Under the pieces are notes generated by a model that was given only the letters and a program-made list of their open reading frames with translations, did not search any database and was not told the origin of the DNA. Below are positions 2,203-16,272 of a stretch of 64,000 nt of DNA, one piece after another. Each line of letters opens with the position of its first letter. Positions within the stretch are counted from its first letter, which is position 1. The position numbers and the translations under genes were made by a program. Location of the stretch: assembly GCA_030539395.1 (NCBI GenBank), contig JAUNSC010000002.1:45015-109014 (forward strand). Direction: 5' to 3'. Origin of the DNA: Eubacteriales bacterium (GTDB lineage Bacteria > Bacillota > Clostridia > Lachnospirales > Lachnospiraceae).

Positions 2203-2811
2203 ATGTCTGCTGCTTTTCTATTTGCCGGAGACAGCATCACCGCATCAGACCGGCTGTGGCTGCCGGAAACGGAGGGCCTTGGAAACGGTTATGTTTCCAT
2301 GCTGGCCCCACAGTTGAAACAGCGTTTTCCCGGTGCGGCCATATACAACAAAGGTTTTGACGGTTTTACAGTCCCCGCCCTGATTCGTCGTTTAAAGCAG
2401 GACGGCATCCCCAAAAATACTAAATGGGTCACTGTGCTGATCGGAATCAACGACATAGGGGTTGCCATGAACACGGGTGTTTCTCTCTCTCAACTGCAGT
2501 TTGCAAAACACTACCGTCAGCTTTTATCCGAAATAACCCAATATCCTTCCGCCCGCATCCTCTGCGTCGGACCTTTTCTTTTTCCGCACCCGCAGGAATT
2601 TATCAACTGGATTCCCCTCCTGCGCGAAACTGAAAAAATCATAACTGATATCACTGACGAAATGAATCTCTCCTTCCTGCCTCTTCATGATACTCTAAAT
2701 GAATTTGCCGCAGACAGGGGATATCACGCCATAACAACGGACGGTATACACCTCACAGCTCTCGGACATCAGTTTCTGGCATCCATGCTTCTTCCATATT
2801 ACACAGCCTGA
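2203..2811 (+). CDS. SGNH/GDSL-family esterase-type hydrolase
   Basis: 202-residue SGNH hydrolase, the usual size for single-domain members. Block I is G9-D10-S11-I-T with Ser11 as nucleophile; block II is Y-N-K-G-F-D-G; block III is G-I-N-D near residue 82; block V is D180-G-I-H183-L-T, supplying the catalytic Asp and His. No signal peptide is seen, so it should act in the cytoplasm, probably removing acyl groups from a carbohydrate or small ester; the substrate cannot be told from sequence. It has its own promoter and terminator and is a single-gene unit. The start is fixed by AAGGAGG 9 nt before ATG. Confidence 0.9.
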   Translation: MSAAFLFAGDSITASDRLWLPETEGLGNGYVSMLAPQLKQRFPGAAIYNKGFDGFTVPALIRRLKQDGIPKNTKWVTVLIGINDIGVAMNTGVSLSQLQFAKHYRQLLSEITQYPSARILCVGPFLFPHPQEFINWIPLLRETEKIITDITDEMNLSFLPLHDTLNEFAADRGYHAITTDGIHLTALGHQFLASMLLPYYTA

Positions 2812-2826
2812 CGCGCCCTCTACACA

Positions 2827-2856
2827 AAAAAGGCTGTCAACCCGGATAGCCTTTTT
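2827..2856 (+). terminator. Terminator after SGNH hydrolase
   Basis: Stem aaaaaggct (2827-2835) with agccttttt (2848-2856), A-rich and T-rich flanks on both strands. It could serve both this gene and the convergent YkgJ-family gene that ends at 2873. Confidence 0.75.
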
Positions 2857-2872
2857 CTTCATACGTTTTCTT

Positions 2873-3544
2873 TTATGATGTCTTTGCCAGTATCTTCATC
2901 AATCGTCTCATCTGCGACATTCTCCCGGCGAATTGTGCGTAAAAATCTTCATGACCCCAGGCCGTTATAAAAAAGGTCTGCAGAAGATGCATATTAAAAT
3001 CTTTTGTCAACTGATCATCATTTTGCTGTTTTAAGAGTTCCTGCGCTTCTTCCTGGAAATTGTGCCAGTCAAGCACATACGCCTCGTACTTTTTCAGTTC
3101 CGGCGTATCAATCCACTTACTGATTTTTACCTTCGTCCTGGGCTGCATCCTGCATTCCTGCTGCTGGAGGAAATAACGGAATGTTCCGTCTTTATAATAA
3201 CGTCCCAGCGGAAACAGCCTGCAGACTCCCGGTCTGAAAGCATGTATGGAGCATCTGCCTTCTTCATTTAAAAATGTACAGCATTCTTCGCTGCCTGTCA
3301 TTTTCAAATTCGGCAGAATCAATCCATCAACAGGATTTAATTCTACTCCATGTTTCATAAGCCCATTAAAATCTGTCTTCAGTCCCTGACACATACGATA
3401 TACATCCAACGGATCAAGTACTACAGACACTCCCATGCCACGGCAGCAGTCACTGCACCCGGCACATCCATTGCAGCCTGCTTTTACCATATCATTTGCG
3501 GTATACAGTTTTTCCAGATCACTTTGAAGCACTTCTCTTCTCAT
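2873..3544 (-). CDS. YkgJ family cysteine cluster protein
   Basis: 223-residue protein of the YkgJ / zinc- or iron-chelating cysteine cluster family. The N-terminal cluster is C-N-G-C-A-G-C-S-D-C-C-R-G-M-G at about 23-37, followed by L-D-P-L-D-V-Y-R-M (the family's conserved D-x-x-R helix) and later C-x-F-L-N-E-E-G-R-C-S-I-H-x-x-R-P-G-V-C-R-x-F-P-L-G-R, the second metal-binding motif. The biochemical role is unknown; members are thought to bind Zn or Fe-S. ATG 3544 has AGGAG 7 nt upstream; an in-frame GTG at 3619 would add 25 residues but has no clear site. It stands alone, convergent with the SGNH hydrolase and divergent from the lipoprotein gene. Confidence 0.85.
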   Translation of the reverse strand: MRREVLQSDLEKLYTANDMVKAGCNGCAGCSDCCRGMGVSVVLDPLDVYRMCQGLKTDFNGLMKHGVELNPVDGLILPNLKMTGSEECCTFLNEEGRCSIHAFRPGVCRLFPLGRYYKDGTFRYFLQQQECRMQPRTKVKISKWIDTPELKKYEAYVLDWHNFQEEAQELLKQQNDDQLTKDFNMHLLQTFFITAWGHEDFYAQFAGRMSQMRRLMKILAKTS

Positions 3545-4440: not shown

Positions 4441-5097
4441 TTAATTATTCGCCATCACTTTCACTTCTCCCAGTGCTTTTGACACTGCCGGAATTAAAAG
4501 GATGATCACAGTAACGGCCCCTTCGGCAAATATATAGCAGGCATTATAGGCAAGAGAATACGACAGTGCTCCCCAGCCTTCCCATGCATATTCGCCAAAG
4601 AAAATCCAGCCTGAAATTACAGCAAACACATACCGCCCGATAATTCCAAGGATATATCCCTTTACCATTCCGAATTTTGCGTTGGCGAAAAAACCTGCAA
4701 GCCCCAACGCGCCAAAGGCCAGCGGATAATCCACAAGAACCTGAATCGGGGTCAGAATATACGGCTCAATCAGAAACTGCAAAATACCGTAGGCAGCGCC
4801 GGTAAGAATTCCGGCTGCCGGGCCATATACATAGCCGGTCAGACAAATGAATATCATACTGAATAAAGTTACCGAGCCTCCAAAAGGGAAAGAAAAAATT
4901 TTCAGCATGGAGGTCACTGTTGCCAGAGCTATTGCCATGGCACAAAATACCAGTTGCTTTGTCCCCATGGTCTTCTTTTTTTCTCCCGCTTTTCCGGCAA
5001 ACACTGCCGCTGCAACCAATACTGCTGCCAAAACGACTGCCGTTACAACTTTCCCCGCTGTGGTAAGACCACCCGCTTCTGTTACAAAAAATGACAT
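4441..5097 (-). CDS. thiT: Thiamine ECF transporter S component ThiT
   Basis: 218-residue membrane protein. From about residue 45 it matches ThiT-type substrate-capture proteins of energy-coupling factor transporters (six helices; M-A-I-A-L-A-T-V-T-S-x-x-K near the start, P-I-Q-V-L-V-D-Y-P-L-A-F-G-x-L-G-L-A-G in the middle, and a Trp/Tyr-rich E-Y-A-W-E-G-W-G region near 168, as in the ThiT thiamine-binding site). It would bind thiamine and dock to a shared EcfA/A'/T module encoded elsewhere. A TPP riboswitch sits in the leader, which fixes thiamine as the likely ligand. Unusual: residues 1-43 add an extra hydrophobic segment (A-V-V-L-A-A-V-L-V-A-A-A-V-F) and K-K-K before the core. Confidence 0.9.
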   Translation of the reverse strand: MSFFVTEAGGLTTAGKVVTAVVLAAVLVAAAVFAGKAGEKKKTMGTKQLVFCAMAIALATVTSMLKIFSFPFGGSVTLFSMIFICLTGYVYGPAAGILTGAAYGILQFLIEPYILTPIQVLVDYPLAFGALGLAGFFANAKFGMVKGYILGIIGRYVFAVISGWIFFGEYAWEGWGALSYSLAYNACYIFAEGAVTVIILLIPAVSKALGEVKVMANN

Positions 5098-5147
5098 AAA
5101 AAAACCTCCTTAAAAATAAATTTAGACAGGAGGAGCTTGTTTGGTAT

Positions 5148-5226
5148 TGCTTCCTTACGCCGGTATTAACCGGTTCAAGTAGTGAGGGTCAGTGCAGAGG
5201 CACTTTCTCAGCCAAAGGCTCCCCTA
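5148..5226 (-). promoter_or_regulatory. TPP riboswitch (THI element)
   Basis: On the minus strand the leader contains, in order, GGGGAGCC, GGCTGAGA, TGACCC, then CTTGAACCGGTTAATACCGG and GCGTAAGGAAGC: the conserved TPP aptamer. It precedes thiT by about 50 nt. The CTCCTCCTG segment after the aptamer (5127-5135) can pair with the gene's AAGGAGG (5104-5110), suggesting control of ribosome access; no clear terminator is seen. Confidence 0.93.
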
Positions 5227-5262
5227 GCATAATGAATGCTGTTAAGTTGTCATTTCCATTTT

Positions 5263-5290
5263 ATTGTATCACTTTGTCTGCTTTTGTCAA
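5263..5290 (-). promoter_or_regulatory. Promoter of the TPP riboswitch - thiT unit
   Basis: TTGACA (5285-5290), 16-bp spacer, TACAAT (5263-5268), ending about 37 nt before the aptamer and abutting the stop codon of the HD-domain gene. Confidence 0.7.
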
Positions 5291-5292
5291 TC

Positions 5293-5841
5293 TCAGCATT
5301 CCAATTTATCAAGATACAGCTTCATCATATTCAGAAACTCTTCTTCCACATCTCGAAAGGACCGTTGACGGTAATCCGGAATACTGTGCAGTTTTCCCGG
5401 CCCCATACTCAGGCGCTCTCCTGCAAAATGATAAAATTCATCATACAGGCAGGTATCATCCACGTCACGGATTTTTTCCATTTCATCTTCTGTGGGAACA
5501 CTTCCGAGAAACTTTTCATATATGGTATCCTGAAGCACTTTTTCAATTTCCCTGTACACCGGCATATTTTTCTTCACCGGTCTGGTTATATCCGACAAAT
5601 ATGCCTCACTTCCGTCATGGAGCAGACACGCCAGTACAAGCCGGTCACAATACCCCCTTGCCTGTGCTTCTTTTGCACACTGAAGACTGTGCTGCCCCAC
5701 AGAATAAAACTCCGGAAAATGCCCATTGGCCCGCGTCATCATTGACAGCGGGTGGGCAATATCTTCCGGTATAATCTCTTCTTTTTTCGGTTCCAGAGGC
5801 GTGAAATGTATTTTAGAAAATGTAGTAATATAATCTGCCAT
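5293..5841 (-). CDS. HD-domain phosphohydrolase (YfbR-like)
   Basis: 182 residues. HD-superfamily metal site: H51 (V-G-Q-H-S), H75-D76 (A-C-L-L-H-D-G-S-E-A-Y) and a distal Asp in R-D-V-D-D-T near 125. The order and the H-D-G-S-E-A-Y-L-S-D-I-T-R-P-x-K stretch are typical of the YfbR-like group, which includes 5'-deoxynucleotidases. It would hydrolyse a nucleoside monophosphate in the cytoplasm; substrate not provable here. Its ATG lies one base after the lysA stop (GTGTAAGATG), so it is the second gene of a lysA operon. Confidence 0.85.
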   Translation of the reverse strand: MADYITTFSKIHFTPLEPKKEEIIPEDIAHPLSMMTRANGHFPEFYSVGQHSLQCAKEAQARGYCDRLVLACLLHDGSEAYLSDITRPVKKNMPVYREIEKVLQDTIYEKFLGSVPTEDEMEKIRDVDDTCLYDEFYHFAGERLSMGPGKLHSIPDYRQRSFRDVEEEFLNMMKLYLDKLEC

Positions 5842-7231: not shown

Positions 7232-8119
7232 ATGAATATTGAGAATTTAAAAACATTTATCACGTTATCAGAACTGAAAAACTTTACTCAGACGGCGGAC
7301 CGTTATTATATTGTACAGTCCACTGTAACAAACCGTATTATGGAGCTGGAAAAGGGTCTTGGCAAAAAACTGTTTATCCGTAACCGCAAAAACGTCGAGC
7401 TGACGGAAGAAGGCCATCATTTTCTCAGCTATGCCAAACGTATTGTGGCACTTGAAGCATCTGCTATTGAAGAGCTGAGCATGCTCCATACTTTTTCGGA
7501 AACACTTCGTATCGGAACTGTAAATACAGCATATGACTGTTATCTTTTCATGCCGATCAAGGAATACATACGCAATTACAAAGATATTTCCATGAAAGTA
7601 ATCATTGACCATTCCGGCCCGCTTCTGCGCATGCTCCAGGACGGCACCATCGATCTGGCTTTTTCTTACATTCCACTAAAAAAAGCCGGTTTTATCTGCA
7701 GGCCTTTTCATCTGGATGAACTGGTACTGGTGACTTCACCGGAACATCAGGAATACAAAGACGGGATCCGGCAGGCTCAGCTGCCTGATCTTGATTATCT
7801 TTACTGCGATTTTATGATCCAGGATGGCGGTACATTTATTCGGGATATGTTTCCGAAAAACTACTCCTTCTCTTTTGAGATTGATAAACTGACTCACCTG
7901 ATCCCTTATCTGACAGACGGAATCGGCTATACGTTCCTGCCCAGAAGTCTTGTTCAGAAATATCTGGATAACGGTTCCCTGACCGCAATTCCTCTGCTTG
8001 ACTTCTCCGCACCTACAATTCAGAACTATATTGTAATTCCGGAAAGCAAAGCTGATCATCTTGCTGTCTGCAAATTTATAGACAGTCTTTCTATTGAGGT
8101 GGATGGCAATGAATCATAA
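7232..8119 (+). CDS. LysR-family regulator, divergent from lysA
   Basis: 295 residues: winged helix-turn-helix at 1-60 (N-I-E-N-L-K-T-F-I-T-L-S-E-x-x-N-F-T-Q-T-A) and a two-lobe effector domain from about 90 (L-R-I-G-T-V-N-T-A-Y-D). LysR proteins usually control the divergent gene, here lysA, with lysine or diaminopimelate as a plausible effector (inference). Its 3' end overlaps a small membrane-protein gene by 11 nt. Confidence 0.85.
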   Translation: MNIENLKTFITLSELKNFTQTADRYYIVQSTVTNRIMELEKGLGKKLFIRNRKNVELTEEGHHFLSYAKRIVALEASAIEELSMLHTFSETLRIGTVNTAYDCYLFMPIKEYIRNYKDISMKVIIDHSGPLLRMLQDGTIDLAFSYIPLKKAGFICRPFHLDELVLVTSPEHQEYKDGIRQAQLPDLDYLYCDFMIQDGGTFIRDMFPKNYSFSFEIDKLTHLIPYLTDGIGYTFLPRSLVQKYLDNGSLTAIPLLDFSAPTIQNYIVIPESKADHLAVCKFIDSLSIEVDGNES

Positions 8120-8360
8120 AAAGAAACGTATCGCGGCGCTGACCGGCGCCCTGCTGCTCATCGGTCTGGCTATTGCAACACTGATTTTTGCATTCATTGA
8201 TACTCCCTGGGCATACGACATGTTCAAGATCTGCCTGGGCTGCGTTATCATTCTCCCGGTACTGATTTATGTTTATCTGCTGCTTGCAAGAGTCCTTGGC
8301 AGCAATGATCAGTTCCCGCAGGAAAAAAAATCTGATTCCGATAATGAGAACAGTAATTAA
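8109..8360 (+). CDS. Small two-helix membrane protein
   Basis: 83 residues with two hydrophobic helices (I-A-A-L-T-G-A-L-L-L-I-G-L-A at about 6-29 and I-C-L-G-C-V-I-I-L-P-V-L-I-Y-V-Y at about 41-62), a basic N-terminus (K-K-K-R) and a hydrophilic C-terminal tail. ATG 8109 has GAGGTGG 6 nt upstream and lies inside the lysR-type gene's end, so translation is coupled. I do not recognise a family. Confidence 0.7.
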   Translation: MNHKKKRIAALTGALLLIGLAIATLIFAFIDTPWAYDMFKICLGCVIILPVLIYVYLLLARVLGSNDQFPQEKKSDSDNENSN

Positions 8361-8398
8361 CTGAATAACAGGAAATCCGCAGGACTTTCCTGCTGCGC

Positions 8399-8436
8399 AA
8401 AAAAGCAGATTCCCACCAGCAGGAATCTGCTTTTTT
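8399..8436. terminator. Bidirectional terminator
   Basis: Fifteen-base arms aaaaaagcagattcc (8399-8413) and ggaatctgctttttt (8422-8436). The A-run and T-run let it end both the plus-strand regulator pair and minus-strand purA (stop at 8445). Confidence 0.9.
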
Positions 8437-8444
8437 ATATCCTG

Positions 8445-9722
8445 TTAATTTCTGTAAATGATATCATCTCTTCCCGGCCCATTTGAAACCATCGTGATTG
8501 GGAAGCCGATTTCTTTCTCAACAAACTCAATATAGTTTCTGCAGTTTTCCGGAAGATCCTCGTACTTCTTAATACCGCGGATATCACATTTCCATCCCGG
8601 AAGTGTCTTCAGAACCGGTTTTGCCTTTTCCAGTTTTGCTGTCGTAGGGAAGTCTGTTGTCACAACACCGTCAATCTCATATCCGACACATACCGGAATT
8701 TCATCCAGGTAACCCAGTACATCCAAAACAGTAAATGCCACATCTGTAGTTCCCTGCATGCGGCAGCCATATTTTGAAGCTACACAGTCAAACCATCCCA
8801 TACGTCTCGGACGTCCGGTTGTAGCACCGTACTCACCGCCGTCACCGCCGCGCCTGCGGAGCTCATCTGCTTCTTCTCCAAAGATCTCACTTACAAATGC
8901 ACCTGCTCCAACTGCACTGGAGTATGCTTTTACAACTGTTACGATTTTCCTGATCTCATAGGGCGGAATCCCGGCCCCGATAGCACCGTATGCTGCCAGT
9001 GTAGATGAAGATGTAACCATCGGATAAATTCCGTGATCCGGATCTTTTAAGGAACCAAGCTGGCCTTCCAAAAGGATATTTTTTCCTTCTTTGATCGCAT
9101 TCCACAGATATGCAGATGTATCGCATACAAAGGGTTCTACCATTTCTTTATAAGAATGCAGTTCTTCCAGCAGATCCTCCGGTTTGATAGCCGGTTTATG
9201 ATAAAGATGTTCCAGAATAACATTTTTCTGCTCACAGATACGTACCACTTTTTCTTTCAGCAGTTCTTCATCAAACAGCTCGCTTACCTGGAAACCGATC
9301 TTTGCATATTTGTCAGAATAAAACGGCGCAATACCTGACTTTGTGGAACCGAAAGATTTTCCTCCCAGACGTTCCTCTTCGTACTGGTCAAACAGAATAT
9401 GATAGGACATTACCATCTGCGCACGGTCGGATACCAGAATCTTCGGCATCGGCACCCCCCTGTCTACAATACTTTTTACCTCATTGAAAAGCACCGGAAT
9501 ATTTAATGCCACACCATTGCCGATGATACTTGTTGTGTGATCGTAAAACACACCTGACGGCAATGTATGCAATGCAAATTTTCCATAATTATTTACAATC
9601 GTATGCCCTGCATTGGCTCCGCCCTGAAAACGTACAATAATATCCGCTTTCTCTGCAAGCATATCTGTAATCTTACCCTTACCTTCATCTCCCCAGTTAG
9701 CCCCTACGACTGCCTGTACCAT
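8445..9722 (-). CDS. purA: Adenylosuccinate synthetase
   Basis: 425 residues, full length. GTP loop G-D-E-G-K-G-K at 11-17 with the catalytic Asp in N-W-G-D-E-G; G-G-x-N-A-G-H-T near 38-45 with the catalytic His; T-T-x-R-P-R-R-M-G-W-F-D near 300; G-P-G-R-D near the C-terminus. It joins IMP and aspartate, with GTP, in the first step to AMP. Here it is a single-gene unit, divergent from a LysR-type regulator and separate from purB, which makes the next step. Confidence 0.97.
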   Translation of the reverse strand: MVQAVVGANWGDEGKGKITDMLAEKADIIVRFQGGANAGHTIVNNYGKFALHTLPSGVFYDHTTSIIGNGVALNIPVLFNEVKSIVDRGVPMPKILVSDRAQMVMSYHILFDQYEEERLGGKSFGSTKSGIAPFYSDKYAKIGFQVSELFDEELLKEKVVRICEQKNVILEHLYHKPAIKPEDLLEELHSYKEMVEPFVCDTSAYLWNAIKEGKNILLEGQLGSLKDPDHGIYPMVTSSSTLAAYGAIGAGIPPYEIRKIVTVVKAYSSAVGAGAFVSEIFGEEADELRRRGGDGGEYGATTGRPRRMGWFDCVASKYGCRMQGTTDVAFTVLDVLGYLDEIPVCVGYEIDGVVTTDFPTTAKLEKAKPVLKTLPGWKCDIRGIKKYEDLPENCRNYIEFVEKEIGFPITMVSNGPGRDDIIYRN

Positions 9723-12242: not shown

Positions 12243-13691
12243 CTACTTTTCGTAATCGCCTCTTATATCTTCTTTCGGTGGTTCCATCGGATATTTTCCT
12301 GTAAAGCATCCTCTGCAGATATCCAATCCCTCCACCATTTCGCTCAGTCTTTCTATCTTCAGATATCCCAGGCTGTCTGCCCCGATAATCTGTCTGATTT
12401 CCTCCACCGAACGATTATAAGCAATCAACTGTTCCCTCGCCGGTACATCCGTACCGAAATAGCACGGCCACAAAAACGGCGGAGAGCTGACTCTCATATG
12501 TACTTCTGTCGCTCCGGCTTCCCTCAGCATCCGCACGATACGGTCACTGGTTGTTCCCCGGACTATAGAATCATCAATCATAATGACTCTCTTTCCTGCC
12601 ACAGCCTCTCTGAGCACATTCAGCTTTATCTTCACGCTGGACTCCCTGTTGCTCTGTTTTGGCTTGATAAAAGTTCTTCCAACATATCCGTTCTTTACAA
12701 ATGCCGTTCCATATGGAATTCCCGACTGAAGAGAATATCCAAGTGCCGCAGCATTGCCCGATTCCGGAACCCCTACAACCAGATCTGCCTCCACCGGCGA
12801 ATCCATGGCAAGAAATCTTCCCGCTCTGATTCTGGATCCATAGACGCTGATGCCGTCTATATGGCTGTCCGGTCTCGCGAAATAAATATATTCAAAAATG
12901 CATCTCGCCTGCTTCTCCTCAGGCAGGCACATACTCTTATCTGAGCTGATGCCATCTTTTGTGACAGTCACAACCTCTCCCGGCTCCACATCCCGCACAT
13001 ATTCAGCACCGATCGTCTCCAGCGCACATGTCTCGGAAGCCAGTATATAAGCACTGTCCCGTCTGCCGATGCAAAGCGGTTTAAATCCAAAAGGATCTCT
13101 GGCTCCGATCAGTTTTCTTGGCGACATTACAACCAGTGAATAAGCTCCCTTAATCTTCTTCATGGCTTTCAAAACAGCTTCCTCAGCATTTCTGGAATGA
13201 ATACGTTCACGGGCAATCAGGTATGCGATCACCTCCGTATCTATCGTTGTCTGAAAAATTGCTCCGGTATAAGCCAGTTCGTCCCGCAGTTCATTTGCAT
13301 TGATCAGATTACCATTATGTGCCAGTCCAAGTGTACCCTTCACATAGTTAAGCACCAGCGGCTGGGCGTTCTCTCTTGTGCTTGCCCCTGCAGTAGAATA
13401 GCGCACATGTCCTACTCCAATATCTCCTTTCAGACTGTCCAGCGTATCACCTACAAAAACCTCGTTTACCAGGCCCATACCTTTGCAGGACGACACCTTT
13501 CCTTTTGGTCCATTCGTATCACTGACTGCAATACCACAGCTCTCCTGTCCCCGATGCTGCAGCGCGAACAAACCATAATAGATTGGCGCTGCCACATCTT
13601 TTCCTTCCAGGTCATACATTCCGAAGACTCCGCACTCTTCCCGCAAAATGTCTTCTGTTTCTTCCTGTTCATAAATTTCTGATTTTTTCAT
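12243..13691 (-). CDS. purF: Amidophosphoribosyltransferase
   Basis: 482 residues. First step of purine synthesis: PRPP and glutamine to phosphoribosylamine. A 19-residue propeptide precedes C20-G-V-F-G, the N-terminal nucleophile exposed by self-cleavage. The Ntn glutaminase domain is followed by a type I phosphoribosyltransferase domain with the PRPP loop V-I-M-I-D-D-S-I-V-R-G-T-T near 356. Cys in A-R-C-I-F-E, W-P-C-Y-F and C-R-G-C-F-T match the four ligands of the [4Fe-4S] cluster of the Bacillus-type enzyme, so it should be oxygen-sensitive. First gene of purF-purB with a long leader. Confidence 0.96.
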   Translation of the reverse strand: MKKSEIYEQEETEDILREECGVFGMYDLEGKDVAAPIYYGLFALQHRGQESCGIAVSDTNGPKGKVSSCKGMGLVNEVFVGDTLDSLKGDIGVGHVRYSTAGASTRENAQPLVLNYVKGTLGLAHNGNLINANELRDELAYTGAIFQTTIDTEVIAYLIARERIHSRNAEEAVLKAMKKIKGAYSLVVMSPRKLIGARDPFGFKPLCIGRRDSAYILASETCALETIGAEYVRDVEPGEVVTVTKDGISSDKSMCLPEEKQARCIFEYIYFARPDSHIDGISVYGSRIRAGRFLAMDSPVEADLVVGVPESGNAAALGYSLQSGIPYGTAFVKNGYVGRTFIKPKQSNRESSVKIKLNVLREAVAGKRVIMIDDSIVRGTTSDRIVRMLREAGATEVHMRVSSPPFLWPCYFGTDVPAREQLIAYNRSVEEIRQIIGADSLGYLKIERLSEMVEGLDICRGCFTGKYPMEPPKEDIRGDYEK

Positions 13692-13938: not shown

Positions 13939-14724
13939 CTATCCCTGTGTATATCTGGTGAGAAACTGCTTTGTTCTCTCTTCCTGCGGATGGTCGATGA
14001 CCTGTGCTGCATCCCCCTGTTCCACAATAAACCCTTCATCCATAAAAATAACCTGATCTGCCACATCGCGGGCAAACGCCATTTCATGCGTAACAATGAT
14101 CATGGTCGTCTTTTTGTCAGCCAGTTTCCGAATGACTTTCAGGACTTCACCGGTAAGTTCCGGATCCAGCGCCGATGTAGGCTCATCAAAGCAGAGAATG
14201 TCCGGTTTTAATGCCAGCGCTCTGGCAATCGCCACACGCTGCTGCTGTCCGCCGGAAAGCTGGTGGGGATAGTGTCCTTCCCTGTCAGAAAGTCCCATTT
14301 GTGCCAGAAGAGCTTTTCCGTGTTCATTGATGGAATCCAGAATCTCCTTTTTCTTCTGTTTGAAATCCGGTCTTTCTTTTGCCAGCAGTTTTTCTGCCAA
14401 TGTCACATTTTCCAGTGCCGTATACTGTGGGAAAAGATTAAAAGACTGGAACACCATACCAAAATGCAGCCTTTTTGTACGAAGATTTTTTTCATTTTCC
14501 GCCGCTGAACGGGATGCGTCAAACAACATTTCTCCACGGACTGAAATCTTACCCTGATCCGGTGTCTCCAAAAAATTCAGGCACCGCAGGAGTGTGGTCT
14601 TACCGGAGCCTGAAGACCCGATAATAGCCAGAGCTTTCCCCTCTTCCAGCGAAAAACTGACATCTTTAAGCACTTTCGTATTCTCAAAATGTTTCTCTAT
14701 ATTACTTACCTCCAGAATCGCCAC
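13939..14724 (-). CDS. Amino acid ABC transporter ATP-binding protein
   Basis: 261 residues, GlnQ/HisP/ArtP type. Walker A G-S-S-G-S-G-K-T-T at 35-43, Q-loop F-Q-S-F-N-L-F-P near 92, signature L-S-G-G-Q-Q-Q-R-V near 157, Walker B I-L-C-F-D-E-P-T-S-A-L-D near 176, H-loop near 212. Compared with the usual 240-250 residues there is an insert of about 14 in R-S-A-A-E-N-E-K-N-L-R-T-K-R. Start is GTG with GGAGGTGGG upstream. Last gene of a three-gene polar amino acid uptake operon. Confidence 0.93.
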   Translation of the reverse strand: MAILEVSNIEKHFENTKVLKDVSFSLEEGKALAIIGSSGSGKTTLLRCLNFLETPDQGKISVRGEMLFDASRSAAENEKNLRTKRLHFGMVFQSFNLFPQYTALENVTLAEKLLAKERPDFKQKKKEILDSINEHGKALLAQMGLSDREGHYPHQLSGGQQQRVAIARALALKPDILCFDEPTSALDPELTGEVLKVIRKLADKKTTMIIVTHEMAFARDVADQVIFMDEGFIVEQGDAAQVIDHPQEERTKQFLTRYTQG

Positions 14725-14736
14725 TTATCCCACCTC

Positions 14737-15393
14737 CTATCTAAAATAATCCAGTCTGCGTTCAATATAGTTAAACAGCAGTGTCAGTATGCCGACAAAC
14801 ACCAGATAAAAGACGCCTGTATAGAACAACGGCCATGTAAGTCCATCTGACTTCATGAAAGAATATCCGGCAAATGTAAGCTCATATGCCGCAATAATTC
14901 TGGCCAGTGAAGTATCCTTTACCAGAGTAATAATCTCATTCGACATGGGCGGTACCACACGTTTCACCATCTGAAGCAGTGTAATTTTAAAGAAAATCTG
15001 GGGCTTCGTCATTCCAAGTACCTGTCCCGCTTCTCTTTGACCAGCAGGCACGCCTTCAATGCCGCCTCTGAAGATAACAGAAAAATAACAGGCATAATTA
15101 ATCGCAAATGCCACTACAGTGGCACTGACTCGTCCTGCCTCATTTCCGCTCCAGATATTATGTCCCAGCCACAGCCCCGGACCGTAAAAAATAATAATCA
15201 GCTGAAGCATCAGCGGTGTTCCGCGGATAACCCATACCACTACCTGCATCAGATACCGCAGAGGTTTCCATTTACTGATAGATGCAAATGCAAAAATCAG
15301 TCCCAACGGAAGCGCAAACACCAGTGTCAGAATGAAAATCTGAAATGTTGTTGCCATACCTCCCATGAGAGATTGTGTTACTTCCCAAAACAT
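14737..15393 (-). CDS. Amino acid ABC transporter permease
   Basis: 218 residues, HisM/GlnP family with about five helices. The coupling-helix motif near 130-150 (E-A-G-Q-V-L-G-M-T-K-P-Q-I-F-F-K-I-T-L-L-Q) faces the ATPase. ATG 15393 has AAAGGAG 8 nt upstream; the frame extends 18 codons further without a site. Only one permease gene is present, so it would work as a homodimer or with a partner encoded elsewhere. Confidence 0.92.
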   Translation of the reverse strand: MFWEVTQSLMGGMATTFQIFILTLVFALPLGLIFAFASISKWKPLRYLMQVVVWVIRGTPLMLQLIIIFYGPGLWLGHNIWSGNEAGRVSATVVAFAINYACYFSVIFRGGIEGVPAGQREAGQVLGMTKPQIFFKITLLQMVKRVVPPMSNEIITLVKDTSLARIIAAYELTFAGYSFMKSDGLTWPLFYTGVFYLVFVGILTLLFNYIERRLDYFR

Positions 15394-15416
15394 GCTATTT
15401 CTCCTTTTACCCAGCA

Positions 15417-15444
15417 AGGCAGAGAGCAATTCTGCTCTCTGCCT
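15417..15444. repeat. Hairpin between binding-protein and permease genes
   Basis: Perfect 12-bp stem aggcagagagca (15417-15428) with tgctctctgcct (15433-15444), loop of 4. On the minus strand it lacks a following U-run, so it is more likely an mRNA-stabilising or processing hairpin at the 3' end of the binding-protein message than a full terminator. This is the usual place for such an element in binding-protein operons. Confidence 0.65.
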
Positions 15445-15498
15445 CAATTTTTATCATCTGACAGTATCCCGTCCGCCGCACCTTCACAGTACAGCCTT

Positions 15499-16272
15499 TT
15501 ATTCAGCGGGAACTACTACTACCTGTGCATTGTTGCAATATGCATTTGTGCATTCCATAGATTCTTTTACTTCATCTGTCAGGGTCATGCCGTTCCATAC
15601 CACATCAATGTTTTTGGAATTAAGCTCCATAATTTTGTTATCCCAGTCGATCTCAACAAACTGTGCTTCTACACCGAGTTTTTCTGCAACAAGTTTTGCC
15701 ATATCAGCATCAAAACCGATCCACTCATCGCCCTCTTTGTAATCCATCGGAGCGAAATCAGTGATACCCACGATCAGGGAACCTTTTTCCTGGATATATG
15801 CCACATCACCGTCTTCCGCAATTTCTGCTTCCTCTCCCGGCTCAGCCTGCTCTACCAAAGCTTCCTGTACACCGTATTTTTCAGCAGTCTCCTGCATGGA
15901 ACCGTCTGCATATGTTTCCTGGAAAACAGCATTGATATAAGCAGCCAGGTCAGATTCTTTACGGCATCCAACACCATACTCCTCTGTTGTCAGTTCTTCT
16001 GTATGTACCAGATCCGGATAGCTTGTACCCTCACCGATCATGGCACCTGCCATTAAAAGGTCGATGATTGCTGCTCCTGAAGTGCCGGATGCAACTTCCA
16101 TCAGGGCATCTGCCTGAGAAGCTACAGAATTATATTCCCAGCCTTTTTCTTCTGCAGCCGCTTCACCTGCAGAACCTGCTTCCACTGCATACACCATATC
16201 CTCTGCATATGCCGGCATTGCCATACCCATAACCATACTCATTCCTAAAAGCACTGCTAATTTCTTTTTCAT
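15499..16272 (-). CDS. Amino acid ABC transporter substrate-binding protein, circularly permuted
   Basis: 257 residues with a Sec signal peptide cut after A-Y-A23; no lipobox Cys. The two halves of the SBP_bac_3 fold are in reversed order. Residues 26-142 match what is normally the second half: V-E-A-G-S-A-G-E, A-D-A-L-M-E-V-A-S-G, I-I-D71, E-E-Y-G-V-G-C-R-K-E-S-D-L, Y-A-D-G-S-M-Q-E-T-A-E-K-Y. After an acidic linker (143-158), residues 163-257 match what is normally the first half: L-I-V-G-I-T-D-F-A-P-M-D-Y, I-G-F-D-A-D-M-A-K-L-V-A-E-K-L-G, N-G-M-T-L-T. The Arg that usually follows T-x-E/K in this motif and binds the ligand carboxylate is Val235 here. ATG 16272 has GGAGG 7 nt upstream. First gene of the operon with permease and ATPase. 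Confidence 0.88.
   Translation of the reverse strand: MKKKLAVLLGMSMVMGMAMPAYAEDMVYAVEAGSAGEAAAEEKGWEYNSVASQADALMEVASGTSGAAIIDLLMAGAMIGEGTSYPDLVHTEELTTEEYGVGCRKESDLAAYINAVFQETYADGSMQETAEKYGVQEALVEQAEPGEEAEIAEDGDVAYIQEKGSLIVGITDFAPMDYKEGDEWIGFDADMAKLVAEKLGVEAQFVEIDWDNKIMELNSKNIDVVWNGMTLTDEVKESMECTNAYCNNAQVVVVPAE

Follow-up and report, generated by a model that had tools for sequence, protein, structure and literature searches.

The gene at 15499..16272 of the window (the whole 64-kb stretch of DNA analysed here) codes for a protein that, as judged from its alignments, is a member of the SBP_bac_3 family by descent and a permuted variant by topology. It is very probably the substrate receptor of a polar-amino-acid-type ABC importer and a natural circular permutant. 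Its features are given below, 6svf being a solved chain of the family and L306 a canonical receptor from a congeneric species:

15499..16272 (-): circularly permuted SBP_bac_3 binding protein of the type called P1 below, 257 aa, in the order lobe 2, lobe-1 tail, linker, lobe-1 N-part
16204..16272 (-): signal peptide without lipobox (AYA-ED), residues 1-23, read from the sequence
15847..16197 (-): canonical second part (lobe 2, hinge 2 and C-terminal tail of lobe 1), residues 26-142, from the 6svf and L306 alignments
15802..15846 (-): acidic linker from canonical C-terminus to canonical mature N-terminus, residues 143-157; its AEDGDVAY aligns with AEDSDKAY of L306
15502..15801 (-): canonical first part, moved to the C-terminus (lobe 1 as far as hinge 1), residues 158-257, from Pfam and the 6svf and L306 alignments
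15568..15570 (-): Val235, at the position of the usual carboxylate-binding Arg, from a residue tally and the 6svf alignment

Order of the Parts in the Window Protein

The Pfam profile PF00497 (SBP_bac_3) matches the window protein in two stretches (E 1.4e-26), the best of which places residues 167-256 on profile positions 2-92, and the score of 93.3 bits passes the curated cut-off of 26.4. In NCBIfam, TIGR01096 and the cystine model each align with two stretches as well, the best ones being 162-255 and 150-246, respectively, and all 11 families listed, which include the named receptor models (GlnH, cystine, HisJ, ArgT, ArtJ and ArtI), remain below their cut-offs (74.9 against 256 for TIGR01096). 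Residues 6-102 of 6svf align with residues 160-254 of the window protein and residues 121-226 with 28-133, so that the order is exchanged; the canonical order (lobe-1 N-part, lobe 2, lobe-1 tail) is found in neither the 6svf nor the L306 alignment. The original prediction that the canonical second half comes first and the first half last is therefore borne out by Pfam, 6svf and L306, and the signal peptide, the motif order, the acidic linker and Val235 are all present as it described. Its breakpoint at the hinge also stands, in view of the sequence, the 91 loci of the same order and the canonical relatives, but its reading of the first half as lobe 2 alone does not, because that block contains the C-terminal tail of lobe 1 as well. 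This composition puts the cut at hinge 1 and means that the linker closes lobe 1 on itself. The lobe and hinge boundaries are presumed ones, placed by our reading of the known structures of the SBP_bac_3 family. No other copy or remnant of any of the three pieces was found by a six-frame model scan of the 64-kb window (best other match E 0.85), in agreement with the earlier claim that no first-lobe remnant lies upstream of the gene.

Relatives With the Same Order and Types of Permutation

Three types of permutation were distinguished, with hinge and lobe names that are our own reading: in P1, the type of the window, the cut lies at hinge 1; a P2 chain begins shortly before hinge 2 and stops in lobe 2 past the conserved Asp helix; and in P3 the cut falls in lobe 2 past the GSAGE turn. 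The contig search gave 104 relatives of the window protein, of which the best 80 were kept. When ORFs containing both parts were counted in the first 113 loci, 88 had the second part first and 42 were canonical, 20 of these 42 being distant paralogues (24-34% identity) and the other 22 close; the close canonical relatives are 58-82% identical per part to the window protein. A three-piece scan (N, C1 and C2) of 262 loci, with 285 ORFs, found 146 canonical, 100 C1-C2-N and 32 C2-N-C1 frames, besides the rarer orders C1-C2-N-C1 (3), N-C1 (2), N-C1-C2-N (1) and C2-N (1). The window's group accounts for 91 of the 100 C1-C2-N loci, which represent 83 distinct proteins (some species were reached via two collections), and the rest are eight other P1 loci (with L202 and L194 as repeat fetches of the same gene) and L184, which is P3 by its ends. 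The 33 P2 frames represent 21 distinct proteins. A model-free check by BLAST against two canonical proteins gave the exchanged order in 13/13 examples tested, each time with one or both of the canonical proteins.

The search for homologues of the same order, proposed together with the original prediction, was thus productive, and the sequencing rearrangement joining two halves, which had been named as a possible source of error, is excluded by these 91 loci. The probability that an assembly or sequencing rearrangement created the swapped order is practically negligible: only the oddity of the order speaks for it, while the 83 distinct proteins come from many assemblies, several isolates among them, and share one linker pattern. 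Going by their record titles, the P1 carriers, with isolates among them, comprise such strains as Roseburia faecis M72 (L068), Roseburia porci (L064), Oscillibacter sp. PC13 (L100) and bacterium 1xD42-87 (L058).

Of 397 genomes sampled from the window's family, 78 match at 1e-30; nine of these 78, its own included, do so by a single co-linear match and are permuted, and 21 of the other 69 were examined as loci (L013-L033), all 21 being canonical. In the sample of the class Clostridia (391 genomes), 25 carry a permuted form, with the order verified on the loci, and a search with a P2 protein added four further genomes of this sample (G859, G893, G921 and G965). In the phylum sample, 81 of 249 genomes (a few of class Clostridia) match the P2 protein P0002 at 1e-35; no permuted form was seen outside the class Clostridia, as none of the matches listed enters the first 87 residues of P0002, which is a weak test with one query. 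No solved permuted relative appears among the matches listed for the P1 profile A1, an alignment of 62 rows (best 60 of 63), or for P0002 (best 60 of 86).

Some loci contain more than one receptor. A distant canonical receptor (24-34% identical) lies less than 5 kb from the P1 receptor in 18 P1 loci (e.g., L042-L044, L072 and L108). A second, very divergent P2 receptor is located behind the P1 receptor in L070 (7328-8188), where it comes after the permease and the ATPase, and in L111 (~7588-8472), so that two differently cut permutants occur per cluster.

A Canonical Receptor in a Congeneric Species

G121 (locus L026/L306), a species placed in the window's genus, encodes a receptor of canonical order, the nearest canonical protein among the comparisons made with the window protein. 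Its residues 25-131 align with residues 152-257 of the window protein (73% identity, 2.7e-56) and its residues 144-261 with residues 25-142 (61% identity, 5e-43). Both receptors share the Val site, the operon type, the absence of a lipobox and the downstream side of the locus, whereas the order of the parts is canonical in L306 and exchanged in the window. Downstream, the two loci agree in gene order (identities of 80% for the ATPase, 90% for a purB-like gene, and then 92, 81 and 84%), apart from a purF-like gene (12243-13691) that lies directly downstream of the transporter in the window and is absent between the ATPase and the purB-like gene in L306, both names being given from reading the sequences. 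The permeases are only 62% identical and no match was found upstream of the receptor at 1e-20, so it looks as if receptor and permease were swapped by recombination at this locus and not permuted in place. Both orders are also present in two other genera (g18 and g23), in which no shared flanks of P1 and canonical members were found in the stretches compared, the operon alone being matched.

Number of Origins

A FastTree phylogeny of 214 re-ordered proteins (two short ones dropped and near copies removed) scatters the permuted groups among canonical proteins, in up to 13 groups, with weak deep supports in the Arg-type part. The receptor tree, inferred under a mixture model by a quick method, contains 95 of the 214 proteins, leaving out 36 of the 52 window-group P1 rows, 75 of the 130 canonical rows, and L070, L111, L187, L190, L193, L244, L245 and L098. 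In this tree, the window's P1 group has a support of 100 and is nested within canonical proteins (97, 89 and 99). Nine changes between canonical and permuted order are required, eight of them forced by branches with support of at least 95; by type, P1 alone has 4, P2 alone 5 and P3 one. The permease tree is built from unpermuted proteins that were not re-ordered (80 of the 95 receptors had a permease) and also has nine changes, of which starred branches force only 4. The starred branches of the quick method are less trustworthy with long rows, which were flagged in both the receptor and the permease tree; the direction of the changes rests on canonical outgroups, and tree changes cannot separate gain from reversal.

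AU tests on the receptors rejected a single clade of all permuted forms (p 2.9e-43), of all P1 (2.5e-42), of all P2 (2e-104) and of window P1 together with L138, L139 and L141 (5.8e-5), and the corresponding values for the permeases were 2.8e-43, 9.5e-7, 2.3e-85 and 7.4e-5, all these p values being optimistic because a first tree had already been used to define the groups. The permease tree disagrees in places, with the canonical L149 grouping with P1 and L139 standing apart from L138 and L141, suggesting that transfer and recombination also play a part.

A single origin for all permuted forms is rejected by the receptor and permease trees. From the trees, the window's P1 type would have arisen once, from a canonical protein, and P2, P3 and further P1 forms would have arisen separately in related receptors of the class Clostridia. 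Somewhat short of an even chance is the broader proposal that the amino-acid ABC receptors of this class may be a permutation hotspot, with about nine switches (eight forced in the receptor tree, four in the permease tree), three cut sites, chain ends that always fall at hinge 1 or within lobe 2, a near-fixed linker closing lobe 1, and selection for hinge dynamics or for anchoring as the driving force.

The Join, the Signal Peptide and How the Permutation Could Have Arisen

The linker of the window protein starts as a canonical C-terminus (..GVQEALVEQ) and its end can be aligned with the start of the mature canonical protein (window AEDGDVAYIQEKG, L306 AEDSDKAYVQEKG), while canonical residues 132-143 of L306, about 12 residues between the two parts, have no counterpart in the window protein. 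Such a linker is the trace expected of a duplicated and trimmed gene, although it does not prove this path. The tandem duplication followed by trimming that had been proposed as the origin is thus consistent with the join, but the 262 loci yielded no tandem N-C-N-C protein. The same absence bears on a related and unlikely explanation, namely that canonical and permuted forms all go back to a single ancient receptor, fused in tandem, which different lineages trimmed in different ways. Intermediates of this kind are predicted by the model of permutation via duplication (PMC3320104), and L098 reads N'-C-N; against it, the two frames of more than 400 residues are a long spacer (L113) and an apparent receptor-permease fusion (L252), and the canonical proteins among which the window's P1 group falls have 58-82% identity per part.

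The contig of L098 (1-846) begins inside its N'-C-N frame, which could be a duplication intermediate or an assembly chimera. Its later part is near-identical to L065 and its start is divergent, making a chimera as likely as an intermediate.

It is possible, if on the doubtful side, that repeated permutation was adaptive, closing lobe 1 into one contiguous domain and shifting the anchored N-terminus away from lobe 1, either to lobe 2 or to the hinge. The new termini are found at hinge 1 or inside lobe 2 and never in the lobe-1 N-part, with no split N piece in the 285 ORFs apart from L098 (at a contig end), and the joins between modelled pieces are tight in length: 21-27 residues in P1 (58 rows), 17-25 in P2 (21 rows) and 24 in P3 (4 rows). 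The spacer from lipobox to domain is also shorter in permuted receptors, with medians of 14 (49 P1) and 12 (13 P2) against 26 in 115 canonical ones, and tethering was raised as a reason by the authors of TpMglB-2, a permuted sugar receptor (PMC4990184). However, the window protein and its P1 relatives L051 and L071 have no lipobox, and cuts within lobe 1 may be incompatible with the structure or may have escaped the search used.

The lipobox pattern was detected in 46 of 52 P1 relatives. Among the six misses, L105 and L106 do show LCAC, L097 is truncated where its contig ends, and the motif is absent from L001 (the window gene), L051 and L071. These three receptors and the canonical congener L026/L306 thus have signal peptides that lack a lipobox, which is unusual in Gram-positive bacteria.

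Operon, Selection and Ligand Site

The genes that follow in the same operon are:

14737..15447 (-): permease (BPD_transp_1), from Pfam and NCBIfam; an inner ATG at ~15393 is the likelier start, by reading
13939..14724 (-): ATPase, with TcyN as the best NCBIfam model, below its cut-off

The adjacent cognate permease and ATPase genes by which an ABC importer receptor is recognized are thus present, and the window protein is most likely an ordinary receptor of this kind. Among P1 loci with room for these genes (of the 52 left after near-copy removal), the permease is downstream in 50/51 and the ATPase in 50/51. The chain would fold as lobe 2 followed by a now-contiguous lobe 1, with one covalent hinge strand instead of two, and the permuted receptor would close on its ligand and dock on the permease like canonical receptors.

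The dN/dS ratio is 0.006-0.07 in the 14 P1 pairs that have diverged least and 0.41 in the 15th (L065/L105), and over 1245 pairs its median is 0.09 and its maximum 0.54, in a set of 100 P1-ordered genes that includes a few near copies, other P1 loci and L184. Asp71, Trp210, Asn227, Gly228 and Thr230 are kept in 52/52 P1 relatives. That the gene is permuted but decayed or repurposed, with no transport, is very unlikely: Val235 in place of Arg and Ala35 in place of what we take to be a Thr of the carboxylate site would speak for it, but these replacements are common to canonical relatives, dN/dS is low and the operon is intact.

The carboxylate-binding Arg, replaced by Val235 in the window protein, is also missing in 48/48 near canonical proteins. 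Site 235 is Val in 47 and Thr in 5 of the 52 P1 relatives; it is Val in 44/48 near canonical proteins (none Arg), Arg in 12 and Val in 7 of 19 middle ones, and Arg in 60/63 far ones. Among other permuted groups, it is Val in four P2a proteins and Arg in 3/3 P1b, P1c, P1d, P1e, 5/5 P2b, 9/12 other P2 and 3/4 P3. The Val site common to near canonical relatives indicates that the loss of Arg predates the P1 event of the window's group. The suggestion that a modified or different ligand goes with the permutation was therefore not upheld, as Val is found on both sides of the event and most other permuted groups retain Arg, and a ligand change caused by permutation was rejected because the Val site was already present in canonical relatives.

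By the residue roles that we assume for the LAO-binding protein, the amine site is retained and the carboxylate site altered in the window protein. By analogy, the ligand could be an amine or an unusual amino acid, which is a guess. Ten P1 loci searched for a riboswitch as a clue to the ligand gave no match at the gathering threshold. The window itself contains a TPP riboswitch (5135-5235 (-), 69.1 bits), far from the receptor gene, and a tRNA.

Known Permuted Proteins and Significance

The window protein shares with SBP_bac_3 receptors (GlnH, HisJ, ArgT and the arginine-type 4prs and 6svf) homology over both parts, like operon partners, and Asp71, Gly228 and Thr230; it differs from them in the exchanged order, the Val at the Arg place and the single covalent hinge strand expected from its sequence. 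To our knowledge, natural permutants with close canonical relatives are rare, and no permuted SBP_bac_3 protein was found in the open-licence literature, judged by titles and abstract openings.

As described by its authors (PMC4990184), TpMglB-2 is a permuted type I glucose-binding receptor with relatives in gut Gram-positives, for which the authors propose a permuted subclass, type Ic, and discuss tethering. It is likewise a naturally permuted ABC receptor, and one that retains ligand binding, but it has a type I sugar fold and another cut site, and the part that was moved shares just 13% identity with E. coli MglB (PMC4990184). The window protein, unlike TpMglB-2, is a predicted type II amino-acid receptor, permutation has several origins among receptors of its kind, and its canonical relatives are close; of the four Pfam families that match it, only SBP_bac_3 is above its cut-off, the type I sugar-binding family not being among the accepted matches. 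Two models of permutation have been described, and DNA methyltransferases, enzymes that also include natural permutants, are a family with documented intermediates (PMC3320104), whereas no sure intermediate was found here.

In two congeneric species, a permuted and a canonical receptor that are 61-73% identical per part occupy matching loci, and several further events have different cuts. Such pairs allow a direct comparison of the number of hinge strands with opening and closing, and of the anchored lobe with docking, and bear on why some folds permute repeatedly. Annotation that expects one order of parts may misread permuted receptors, and natural permutants could become scaffolds for ligand sensors.

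Other unusual receptors were met in the loci. L184 has a P3 permuted receptor (2402-3334) and a distant canonical receptor (4974-5723) close together on one strand. In the canonical receptor of L113 (1774-3057), the lipobox is followed by a repetitive Ala/Glu/Ser spacer of great length, and the 523-aa frame of L252 (1710-3278), whose C-terminus is permease-like, reads as a receptor-permease fusion.
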